From Dokdonia sp. (lineage in GTDB: Bacteria > Bacteroidota > Bacteroidia > Flavobacteriales > Flavobacteriaceae): a DNA stretch of 64,000 nt. Numbering within the stretch: position 1 is the first letter of the stretch; the number at the start of each line of letters is the position of its first letter. This document shows positions 1,623 through 62,895 of the stretch, piece by piece. The stretch lies in contig JAHDIF010000004.1 in the NCBI GenBank assembly GCA_020630915.1, forward strand, positions 62,001 through 126,000, read 5' to 3'. The notes beneath the pieces were generated by a model. It saw only the letters and a list, made by a program, of their open reading frames with translations, was not told where the DNA came from and made no database searches. The translations under genes were made by a program, and so were the position numbers.

Positions 1623-1642
1623 TACGCTTTCGCGAAAGCGTA
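1623..1642. repeat. 20-bp palindrome between atpD and atpC
   Basis: TACGCTTTCGCGAAAGCGTA is perfect over 20 bp and contains the 14-bp core GCTTTCGCGAAAGC (1626-1639). It lies 16 nt upstream of the atpC ATG. It has no U-tract, so it is not a standard terminator. Confidence 0.95.
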
Positions 1643-1654
1643 ATTATAAGTCTA

Positions 1655-3163
1655 TTAGGCTTCTGCAAGCATTTTTTCTCCTGCTTCGATAGCTTCCTCA
1701 ATCGTTCCTTTAAGGTTAAATGCTGCTTCTGGAAGGTGATCTAATTCTCCGTCCATAATCATATTAAATCCTTTGATTGTTTCCTTAATATCTACCAATA
1801 CTCCAGGGATACCTGTAAACTGTTCTGCCACGTGGAAAGGCTGAGATAAGAAACGTTGTACACGACGTGCACGTCCTACGGCCATTTTATCTTCCTCAGA
1901 AAGTTCTTCCATACCTAAGATGGCGATAATATCTTGAAGCTCCTTATAACGTTGCAATAACTCTTTTACTCGTTGTGCACAATCATAGTGCTCATTTCCT
2001 AATATATCTGCGGTAAGAATACGTGATGTAGAATCTAGAGGATCTACCGCTGGATAGATACCTAGCTCTGCAATCTTACGAGAAAGTACGGTTGTTGCAT
2101 CAAGGTGAGCAAAGGTTGTCGCTGGTGCTGGATCTGTAAGGTCATCTGCAGGTACGTAAACCGCTTGTACAGATGTAATAGATCCTCTTTTTGTAGAAGT
2201 AATACGCTCTTGCATCGCTCCCATCTCTGTTGCAAGTGTAGGCTGGTATCCTACTGCAGATGGCATACGTCCAAGAAGTGCAGATACCTCAGAACCCGCT
2301 TGTGTAAAACGGAAAATGTTATCTACGAAGAAAAGTACATCTTTTCCTTGTCCTTCTCCTGCTCCATCACGAAAATACTCAGCAATGGTAAGTCCAGAAA
2401 GTGCTACACGAGCACGAGCTCCAGGAGGCTCATTCATCTGTCCGAATACAAAGGTTGCTTTAGACTCTTTCATAGCCTCTTTATCTACCTTGGTAAGATC
2501 CCATCCTCCTTCTTCCATAGAGTGCATAAAGTCATCACCATATTTGATAATTCCTGACTCAAGCATCTCTCTTAAAAGGTCATTTCCTTCACGAGTACGT
2601 TCTCCTACTCCCGCAAATACAGAAAGTCCACCGTGACCTTTTGCAATATTGTTAATCAACTCCTGGATAAGTACTGTCTTTCCTACTCCAGCTCCTCCAA
2701 ATAGTCCAATCTTACCTCCTTTTGCATAAGGCTCAATAAGATCGATTACTTTAATACCTGTAAAAAGCACTTCTGTAGATGTTGATAAATCTTCGAATTT
2801 TGGTGCTTGACGGTGAATAGGAAGACCTGCTTCTCCCGCCTTTGGTAAGTTACCAATACCATCAATAGCATCTCCAATTACATTAAAAAGACGCCCATAT
2901 ACATCATCTCCTATAGGCATCTGGATAGGTGCGCCAGTGGCTACTGCATCTACACCGCGGCTTAATCCGTCTGTAGAGTCCATCGATATGGTACGTACTG
3001 TGTTCTCACCAATGTGTGACTGTACTTCAAGAACTAATTTAGTTCCATCTGCATTTGCAATTTCTAGTGAATCGTAAATTTTCGGTAATTCAGAACCGCT
3101 AGTAAACGCAACGTCTACAACTGGGCCAATGATTTGTGCAACTTTACCTGTAACTTTTGACAT
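1655..3163 (-). CDS. atpD: F1Fo ATP synthase subunit beta
   Basis: The 502-residue protein is the catalytic beta subunit of F1, which makes ATP from ADP and phosphate at the cytoplasmic face. The P-loop GGAGVGKT is at residues 156-163, followed by [10 protein letters not shown], the Walker B region [12 protein letters not shown], and the signature [15 protein letters not shown]. Length is normal for the phylum. It is the first gene of an atpD-atpC pair. Upstream, the minus strand carries TATCTTTG (3223-3230), a good TAnnTTTG promoter core 60 bp before the start codon. Confidence 0.98.
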
Positions 3164-3222
3164 TATAGATTATTTAATGTTTAGCATTTAATATGCGAAA
3201 AAACACCTCGTTTTTCACGGCG

Positions 3223-61353: not shown

Positions 61354-62264
61354 GAACGTGAGAAGACATCATCTTCTTTCATGGCGGCTATTAATTCTTC
61401 TACACTGGCAAAGCGCTTTTCCTCACGTATGCGAGCAAGAATTTCTATAGACAGTTCCTTGTCGTAAAGGTCACCGTCAAAATCAAAGAAAAACGTTTCT
61501 ACCGTCTGTCTTTCTCCTCCTACGGTTGGGTTGGTGCCTATATTCATCATTCCATACACAAGTGAGCCGTCTATACTACTTTGTACAATATAAACGCCTT
61601 GCGCAGGTATAAGTTTGTACTCTTCCGGTATAGAAAGGTTTGCTGTAGGATAGCCTATTTTTCTACCTAAGCTCTTTCCTTTAACTACAATCCCATTAAG
61701 CATGATTGGGTATCCTAGATATGCATTTGCTAGACCAATATCTCCTGCATCTAAAGCCTTGCGCACTTTAGTAGAGCTTATGGCAACATCTTCAAGCTCT
61801 TGTTTAGAAATTTCTTCTACCTTAAAGCCGTACTGTTCTCCAAACTTTTTTAAGTCGGTAATGTCTGCATTTCGGTTTCTCCCAAAACGGTGGTCGTATC
61901 CTATAATTACTTTTTTTGCTTTAAGGGTATTCACTAGAATCTCTTTTACAAACTCCTCTGCCGTCATTCTAGAAAATTCTATCGTAAACGGATGAATCAC
62001 AAGATGATCTAAGCCCTCTTTTTCTAATAATTGCGCCCTTTCTGAGATGGTATTGATCAACTTAATCTTTGCATCTTTTTGCAGCACCATTCTAGGATGC
62101 GGGAAGAAGGTAAGTACCAATGAATCCCATTGATTTGCTTTTGCACTTTCCACCAGCCGTTTGATAATTTTTTTATGACCTACATGAACTCCATCAAAAG
62201 TTCCTATGGTAACAACCGTTCCTTGGGTAGATGTAAATGACGCAGCTCCTTTATGTGTTTTCAA
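61326..62264 (-). CDS. ribF: Bifunctional riboflavin kinase/FAD synthetase
   Basis: The 312-residue enzyme converts riboflavin to FMN and then FAD. The N-terminal FAD synthetase domain has TIGTFDGVHVGHKKII and VIIGYDHRFGRNR and ISSTKVRKALDAG; the C-terminal riboflavin kinase domain has GKSLGRKIGYPTANL and YGMMNIGTNPTVGG. Length is normal. It starts 4 bp after pth and overlaps the HTTM gene at its end, indicating one transcript. Confidence 0.96.
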   Translation of the reverse strand: MKTHKGAASFTSTQGTVVTIGTFDGVHVGHKKIIKRLVESAKANQWDSLVLTFFPHPRMVLQKDAKIKLINTISERAQLLEKEGLDHLVIHPFTIEFSRMTAEEFVKEILVNTLKAKKVIIGYDHRFGRNRNADITDLKKFGEQYGFKVEEISKQELEDVAISSTKVRKALDAGDIGLANAYLGYPIMLNGIVVKGKSLGRKIGYPTANLSIPEEYKLIPAQGVYIVQSSIDGSLVYGMMNIGTNPTVGGERQTVETFFFDFDGDLYDKELSIEILARIREEKRFASVEELIAAMKEDDVFSRSWIQQHTTT

Positions 62265-62268
62265 ACTC

Positions 62269-62895
62269 TTACTTTCCGTTGTAATTATTCATTGTATTGG
62301 TAATCCCTGCGGCCACAAAAGATGTGATTACTTCACAAGCCATATCTAGTCTTTCTGGAAGTTTAGCCTCTTCTTCTGAGGTCCATTCTCCTAGCACATA
62401 ATCTACTTGCCTTCCTTTTGAGAAAGCATCACTTATCCCAAAACGAAACCGATTGTATTGAGTCGTATTTAACTGTGCTTGGGTATCTTTTAACCCGTTA
62501 TGACCGCCATCAGAACCCTTAGTTTTTAAGCGTATGGTTCCAAACTCTAGGTTGAGGTCGTCGGTTATCACTAGTAAATTTTCTACGGGTACTTTCTCTT
62601 GTTGTAACCAGTAACGTATTGCTTTCCCACTTAAGTTCATAAAAGTATTGGGTTTTAACAATATAACGGTTTTACCCTTTACCTTGGTCTTTGCGATGTC
62701 TCCTAGTTTTTCAGTTTCAAAGGAGGTTTGTTGCGCTTTCGCGAAAGCGTCTACCACCTTAAAGCCAATATTATGGCGGGTGTTCTCATATTTAGGACCA
62801 ATATTGCCTAAACCTACGATCAAAAATTTCTTCATGGGATCTATGGGTGGTGTCTTTTCCTTCTTTTTAAAAAGTCTACCGAAAAATGCTAGCAT
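62269..62895 (-). CDS. pth: Peptidyl-tRNA hydrolase
   Basis: The enzyme frees tRNA from prematurely released peptidyl-tRNA. MKKFLIVGLGNIGPKYENTRHNIGF contains the catalytic His, with LLKPNTFMNLSGKAI, ITDDLNLEFGTIRL and GSDGGHNGLKD following. The full frame gives 208 residues with an N-terminal Lys-rich extension (MLAFFGRLFKKKEK); ATG at 62835 would give the standard 188. Similar extensions occur in related flavobacteria, as I recall, so either start is possible. The palindrome at 62735-62748 encodes AFAKAQ after helix 1. Confidence 0.94.
   Translation of the reverse strand: MLAFFGRLFKKKEKTPPIDPMKKFLIVGLGNIGPKYENTRHNIGFKVVDAFAKAQQTSFETEKLGDIAKTKVKGKTVILLKPNTFMNLSGKAIRYWLQQEKVPVENLLVITDDLNLEFGTIRLKTKGSDGGHNGLKDTQAQLNTTQYNRFRFGISDAFSKGRQVDYVLGEWTSEEEAKLPERLDMACEVITSFVAAGITNTMNNYNGK
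62735..62748. repeat. 14-bp palindrome inside pth
   Basis: Perfect GCTTTCGCGAAAGC within CGCTTTCGCGAAAGCG (62734-62749), read as AFAKA. Confidence 0.95.

Follow-up and report, generated by a model that had tools for sequence, protein, structure and literature searches.

A 14-bp palindrome repeated hundreds of times at even spacing in Dokdonia and two other genera of Flavobacteriaceae: a possible chromosome-scale protein-binding site

The palindrome and the genes around it in the window

In the 64,000-nucleotide stretch of Dokdonia sp. analyzed here (hereafter the window), the perfect 14-bp palindrome GCTTTCGCGAAAGC is found in 16 exact copies, against none in 100 dinucleotide shuffles. When up to two mismatches are allowed, 25 sites are found where 0.14 would be expected, nine of them with one or two mismatches. 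An earlier inspection of the letters alone (the sequence-only reading) had located every one of the exact copies correctly. The five degenerate copies that it listed are also real, but their coordinates were displaced by one or two positions and four further ones had been missed.

Three exact copies are outside open reading frames (ORFs): one 15 bp off the end of the ATP synthase beta gene (1626-1639), one 4 bp off the end of glmS (3289-3302), and one between two plus-strand ORFs, 9 and 14 bp off them (43463-43476). The first and the third, together with the copy at 26073-26086, have the 20-bp TAC...GTA extension, so that the "several" extended copies of the sequence-only reading are 3 of 16. 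Its division of the copies inside genes into eight read as AFAKA, two as FRES and one clear LSRK was reproduced. The latter is at codon 252 of 282 of the pantoate ligase gene (8587-8600). AFAKA is spelled in the variable linker of radA (12609-12622) and in genes for a carbon-nitrogen hydrolase (29549-29562, codon 246 of 283), a low-molecular-weight phosphatase (46688-46701, codon 163 of 183), a D-2-hydroxyacid dehydrogenase (52021-52034) and peptidyl-tRNA hydrolase (62735-62748, codon 50). It is also found in an ORF with no Pfam match (40837-40850), in a gene resembling pyridoxal phosphate decarboxylases with scores under the curated cut-offs (48953-48966), and at codon 17, in an apparent signal peptide, of a gene with weak TPR-family matches (58503-58516). 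FRES occurs in the rRNA adenine dimethylase gene (54630-54643, codon 241 of 274) and in the gene of an HTTM-domain protein (60898-60911). The two remaining copies encode LSRK only when the 5' end of the ORF is accepted as called. That at 26073-26086, at the 5' end of a class II tRNA synthetase ORF, may be intergenic if the true start is downstream, and that at 37338-37351, on the called start of a deaminase gene, may lie just upstream of the gene instead of inside it.

Among the mismatched copies, those at 16387-16400 and 20794-20807 have the same single change (A to G at base 10), and the mismatch scan revealed one change each at 19738-19751 and 32327-32340. Two mismatches are present in the copy past radA (13836-13849) and in the four missing from the earlier list (17753-17766, 33118-33131, 45849-45862 and 56988-57001). 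The copy at 13836 is probably a decayed one, since the orthologous place in another genome of the genus, G017, is exact (L259:2142). The widest gap among exact copies (12623-26072, 13.5 kb) contains five of the nine mismatched copies, and for this reason, together with the exact G017 counterpart of 13836, this stretch may be losing copies. A 1148-aa ORF in the window (17547-20993) has a weak, sub-cut-off match to a phage distal tail family. No match at gathering scores was obtained in an Rfam scan of the window.

Abundance, constraint and spacing of the copies

The genome of the window (G000, an assembly of 2,967,236 bases in 18 contigs) contains 685 exact copies, and the reversed-pattern control none, so the excess noticed in the window holds genome-wide. 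All 18 genomes searched in the genus (g1) carry the palindrome, with 369 to 905 copies, several of the assemblies being incomplete. In 15 of the 18 the number stays between 610 and 905 despite assembly sizes of 2.6 to 5.5 Mb, so the larger genomes are sparser. From 397 genomes of the family, G000 included, 80 have at least one copy and 317 none. At least 100 copies were found in only six, from three genera (685 and 857 in g1; 578, 664 and 609 in g11; 408 in g210), and 1 to 19 copies in 74. In a class-wide draw of 149 genomes, again with G000, nine have a match, with 1 to 4 copies each except G000. One of the genomes used below, G006, encodes a protein that differs at 2 of 280 aligned residues from the solved sodium-pumping rhodopsin 7q36 (KR2 of Krokinobacter/Dokdonia), which makes Dokdonia the probable identity of the genus.

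No other iterated palindrome of 12 or 14 bases with three or more copies was found in 80 loci of up to 17 kb from other genera. The GC-containing 10-mer AAAGGCCTTT has four copies in 17 kb of a Pseudozobellia record (L063), and GTTCCACGTGGAAC, which resembles a parS site, has two in 17 kb of L061.

The constraint on the copies was measured in three genome pairs aligned over joined stretches. The 14-base core diverges by 0.2%, 2.9% and 3.4%, while bases 1-3 outside it diverge by 14.2%, 15.2% and 22.0%. Exact copies are kept in 38 of 39, 34 of 39 and 33 of 38 cases, where 11.1, 5.7 and 2.0 would be expected from each copy's own flanks. The corresponding shares for control 14-mers located 90-150 bp away are 34.6% of 243, 19.4% of 248 and 5.2% of 229. 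Closer pairs behave in the same way (core against bases 1-3: 1.0% vs 8.8% in G006-G009; 0% vs 3.0% in G003-G017), and stricter flank rules give 37 of 38 copies kept in G006-G008 and 34 of 38 in G006-G009, with 4 copies unaligned in each. Divergence does not increase with distance from the copy, up to 4 kb. The changed copies of close pairs have one or two substitutions and no gaps; one gap was found in each of two distant comparisons. Copies with a single mismatch are few beside the exact ones: 123 vs 685 in G000, 72 vs 899 in G017 and 128 vs 408 in g210. These changes fall on the outer bases (2 of the 14) in 2 of 12 cases in g1, 7 of 15 in g210 and 3 of 7 in g11.

For the counts of peptides, gene context and spacing, stretches of several genomes were pooled that are partly orthologous and thus not independent; genes are longest-ORF calls, with a non-coding share of 6.6-9.3% or 11% depending on the analysis. 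The exact palindrome accounts for 76 of the 77 AFAKA peptides in ORFs called over 884 kb of the genus, and AFAKA is missing altogether from 80 loci (1.34 Mb) of other Flavobacteriaceae. FRES is spelled by it in 34 of 39 cases in the genus and in 0 of 5 in those loci; for LSRK the figures are 37 of 45 and 7 of 17. These seven LSRK are the sole palindromes in the 80 loci and share one orthologous codon position in Flavobacterium-like records; such records with the LSRK copy near radA are L048, L051, L052, L054, L055, L065 and L070. In the radA linker itself, whose length changes among relatives, the copy reads AFAKA in the window, G016 and g210; two of the three g11 genomes have it in a different frame, as PLSRKR. 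The copy is missing from five other genomes of the genus shown and from the 30 remaining rows. The sequence-only reading had suggested a comparison of orthologues, and at radA, the one gene compared over named genera, motif-poor relatives have no copy. AFAKAQ is often placed at the expected signal-peptide cut (A-K-A before Q), as at 58503 in the window, in L258:16764-19544 and in L266:14856-16283, which suggests that the palindrome has been accommodated within signal peptides.

The copies are spaced more evenly than random placement would give. The coefficient of variation (CV) of 82 pooled gaps is 0.57 against 0.985 at random, a value not reached in any of 2000 simulations, and gaps under 1 kb make up 2.4% instead of the expected 25%. 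By genome, the CV is 0.48 in G006, 0.67 in G000, 0.72 in G004, 0.61 in g210 (P 0.002) and 0.46 in g11. A null that keeps the shares of spacers, gene ends and gene middles gives 1.00-1.02, with 0.48-0.72 observed, in 5 of 5 stretches (P ≤0.0025). The mean gap is about 3-5 kb in most of the sampled stretches and 8 kb in g210. Along the G017 chromosome, the only one sampled in this way, each of 20 stretches of 20 kb has between 3 and 9 copies (variance/mean 0.30), and inspection by eye reveals no trend from origin to terminus. There are few close pairs, the smallest of 197 bp. A pair exactly 388 bp apart is kept in G006, G008 and G017 and is also the smallest gap of G009; it is an exception to the avoidance of close pairs, and where looked at it is inside a gene similar, by sight, to uroporphyrinogen synthase. 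We considered whether such clusters mark regulator genes and rejected it, the 388-bp pair not being beside an obvious regulator.

Between genes, 89 of 208 copies are found in 11% of the DNA. Every intergenic region with the palindrome has exactly one copy (130 of 130 in 1.08 Mb, a set that counts one 20-kb G017 stretch, L260, twice), at 1.63 copies per kb of spacer in tandem, 1.50 in convergent and 1.16 in divergent arrangements. DNA that cannot be aligned between genomes is about as dense in copies as aligned DNA in G017-G006 (0.31 vs 0.30 per kb) and G017-G004 (0.29 vs 0.30). The values are 0.21 vs 0.27 in G006-G008, 0 vs 0.28 in G006-G009 and 0 vs 0.31 in G003-G017, three pairs with little unaligned DNA.

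For some 20 bases on each 5' side, the sequence is rich in T and poor in C whether the copy lies in a spacer or in a gene, and the base adjoining the core is C on 84% and G on 0.2% of 428 sides. In g11 the core is unchanged and the flanks have C or T instead of A at -2 and T at -10 to -13; the bias is weaker in g210. The flanks show no extra pairing within the site and evolve at about the background rate. As the sequence-only reading had argued from the lack of U-tracts, the copies are not intrinsic terminators: TTTT occurs within 10 nt on 6 of 260 sides, against a background of 10.7%. An RNA hairpin was also rejected: the folding of the bare 14-mer is on a par with that of shuffled sequences (z 0.05), and the modest advantage of two longer pieces that include flanks (z -1.5 and -2.2) is what an extended palindrome of any kind would show.

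Turnover, a second lineage and stray copies

Across the genus, copies are slowly replaced. As shared copies, those only in the first and those only in the second genome, we counted 37/2/6 in G006-G008 (88.5% identity), 34/5/10 in G006-G017 (80.2%), 34/13/7 in G017-G004 (76.2%) and 26/12/11 in G006-G004 (75.6%). For the genome of the window, the counts are 18/8/11 with G006 (73.1%), 18/10/13 with G017 (72.9%) and 14/11/11 with G004 (72.9%). In all six pairs computed, unshared copies are farther from the copies of the other genome than random places are (medians in bp, unshared/random: 1371/721, 1003/863, 1573/870, 1073/706, 1090/764 and 959/893), as expected if the spacing is under selection; each median comes from 5-13 copies, from pairs that share genomes, and carries no significance test.

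In a RadA tree, g210 is the sister of g1 (100/92), and g11 is distant, on a long branch near Aquimarina. A single clade of g11, g210 and g1 has p 0.04 in a test in which this long branch is involved, so that separate origins of the motif in g11 and g1 are weakly favoured. None of the placeable copies is within 60 bp of a g11 copy (0 of 7 from G006 and 0 of 8 from G000; chance 2.7% each), and 3 and 1, respectively, are within 500 bp (chance 22%). With g210, 2 of 11 copies of G006 and 2 of 8 of G000 are shared. Since 0 of 15 placeable copies are at g11 positions, it seems that g11 and g1 have in common the recognised word, and the factor recognising it, and not the places.

In several motif-poor genera the few copies lie together, in a gene cluster whose ORFs of about 1250 and 405 aa match a metal-efflux system in size (L276, L278, L279, L281, L282 and L284-L287). 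The same 933-bp pair of copies is found in G141, G118, G127 and G254. These stray copies were likely acquired long ago from a rich lineage by horizontal transfer. Two or three copies are present on each of at least eight viral contigs, three of which have matches to phage-family proteins (transposase and baseplate hub in one, integrase in another, terminase and portal in the third). From these proteins on copy-bearing contigs, we conclude that phages, some of them temperate judging by their genes, carry the palindrome. Plasmid and phage collections, in which close records were possibly left out, gave only short chance matches to a 30-mer.

What reads the palindrome

We suggest, with a probability of about 45%, that GCTTTCGCGAAAGC is the genome-wide recognition site of a putative dimeric DNA-binding protein with a chromosome-scale role. 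The sharp edge at 14 bases, the palindrome and the few one-off copies point to a candidate sequence-specific protein, probably a dimer, that would read the double-stranded word. One bound protein would serve several kb of DNA, and selection would for this reason act on the spacing, a second nearby copy being useless and a long gap costly. The even spacing, the one copy per spacer, the lack of polarity and of a visible terminus bias argue for a role on the scale of the chromosome over gene control. This role could be nucleoid organisation, segregation or break repair rather than gene regulation, which is the least certain step. The T-rich, C-poor flanks of about 20 bp may aid the bending or opening of the DNA, although their rate of evolution is about that of the background. 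The sites of ParB, Noc, SlmA and MatP are similar in being palindromic chromosomal sites of dimeric proteins, but GCTTTCGCGAAAGC is many times commoner and shows no visible origin or terminus bias in G017.

None of the four candidate factors explains the distribution of the motif. The sequence-only reading had proposed a ParB/Noc-like protein, and as a dedicated ParB paralogue this finds no support: there is one ParB in 11 of 12 motif-rich genomes and two in G016, against one to three in 17 motif-poor genomes, and the extra ParB of G016 is of a 616-aa type that occurs in poor genomes too. Neither is an extra paralogue conserved, nor did the copies of G017 visibly follow the origin-terminus axis. 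The C5 methylase family PF00145 is absent from 5 of 12 motif-rich genomes, the methylase family PF01555 is above the cut-off in only 2 of 12, and 4 of 12 have neither above the cut-off. ComEC with an open frame is present in all 18 genomes, 12 of 12 rich and 6 of 6 poor.

Several observations weigh against a chromosome-scale binding site. No protein was pinpointed among ParB, PF00145, PF01555 and ComEC. Known chromosome-organising motifs number in the tens, show polarity, or are either kept out of the terminus or concentrated there, and none with 700 uniform copies is known to us. The occurrence in only three genera lowers the likelihood that the chromosome function is an essential one. The spacing is less regular in G000 (0.67), G004 (0.72) and g210 (0.61) than in G006 (0.48), and some copies lie close together, the nearest pair being 197 bp apart. 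Non-alignable DNA is somewhat poorer in G006-G008, and in G006-G009 it holds 0 of 42 copies. Finally, the flank dialects and the preference for spacers and loose protein segments fit uptake sequences as well.

A DNA-uptake sequence, also among the proposals of the sequence-only reading, is the main alternative, though in our view less likely than the binding site: a transformation surface receptor of Flavobacteriaceae would prefer DNA with the palindrome, and recombination of the taken-up DNA would spread and keep the copies. The uptake sequences of Pasteurellaceae and Neisseriaceae also have hundreds of copies with an enrichment in spacers, and those of Haemophilus have T-rich flanks, with uptake dialects between genera. 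Our copies likewise occur in loose segments such as the radA linker, show no chromosome polarity and have T-rich flanks that differ between genera. However, known uptake sequences are not palindromic. Non-alignable DNA is about as dense in copies as aligned DNA in both pairs that are rich in it, and divergence does not increase with distance from a copy. According to PMC1939737, the uptake sequences of Haemophilus have a non-coding excess and are significantly evenly spaced according to Karlin et al., but are deemed less even than compaction sites should be. The 10-base sequence of A. pleuropneumoniae has 438 exact to 947 one-off copies there, and such a cloud of one-mismatch copies, expected of an uptake sequence, is not seen in G000 (685:123) and G017 (899:72), with g210 softer (408:128). 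Own DNA is preferred by Riemerella columbina (PMC7965970), and R. anatipestifer requires proteins of unknown function found mainly in Flavobacteriaceae (PMC8459023). ComEC, present in all motif-rich genomes, is also in all the motif-poor ones, and among the matches listed there is no paper on competence in these bacteria.

A Chi-like or roadblock site, at which the bound palindrome would halt or divert a nuclease acting on broken or incoming DNA and so limit the loss to a few kb, seems improbable to us. The even spacing suits such a site, as do the T/G-rich, C-poor 5' flanks on both strands and the copies on phage contigs. Nevertheless, known Chi sites are non-palindromic, strand-biased and read in one orientation, and a perfect palindrome can have no orientation.

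We give still less credit to a HIP1-like by-product, in which methylation and mismatch repair would create and preserve the palindrome around a methylase target such as TCGCGA. As a description, the HIP1-like label of the sequence-only reading stands: similar to HIP1 of cyanobacteria (GCGATCGC) and its alternates, GCTTTCGCGAAAGC is an iterated GC-rich palindrome, in hundreds of copies within and between genes, restricted to clades and over-represented at the DNA level. The link to a methylase does not stand for PF00145 and PF01555, neither of which is conserved in the rich genomes, and TCGCGA is not abundant outside the motif (24 in the window vs 19 TTTCGCGAAA). It also differs from HIP1 in its 14 bp against 8, its strongly even spacing, and its density of about one per 4 kb against about one per 1 kb for HIP1 (PMC4390886). 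The same source gives Elhai's model, which predicts saturation at a set spacing and an outer-base bias of one-off copies; the outer-base changes of g210 and g11 lean further towards it than the 2 of 12 in g1.

A REP-like mobile repeat inserting copies of itself, suggested earlier and matched by the high copy number and by palindromes interspersed between genes as in REP/BIME elements, is very improbable for most copies, given the presence inside genes, the regular spacing, the constraint that stops at the 14th base and the gap-free changes of close pairs with aligned flanks running through them. Some copies may nonetheless be insertions, given the gaps of two distant comparisons and the radA linker lengths.

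In a text search of 5.39 million papers, GCTTTCGCGAAAGC was not found as a string; subscription papers were mostly outside its scope, so this is no proof that the motif is unpublished. No match paired highly iterated palindromes with Flavobacteri-, or Nonlabens and Dokdonia with a repeat motif, and broader searches gave nothing on the motif among the matches listed. Bacteroidetes, Flavobacter, Dokdonia and TTTCGCGAAA are not mentioned in PMC4390886.

The question why bacteria retain hundreds of identical short palindromes is an old one, raised by HIP1 since the 1990s and not yet answered. The present case offers a long and exact site of almost all-or-none distribution, close relatives that have it or lack it, and single-contig genomes, which together make it feasible to isolate a binding protein and to test the effect of its loss. 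Any mechanism will also have to account for the few-kb length scale set by the even spacing. It is a possible picture, at less than even odds, that some 700 identical docking sites of regulated spacing for a putative DNA-binding protein were gained separately by two distant marine lineages of Flavobacteriaceae, reshaped their genes (AFAKA, FRES and LSRK in linkers and signal peptides) and were copied by phages. If true, this would be a kind of bacterial chromosome architecture new to description.

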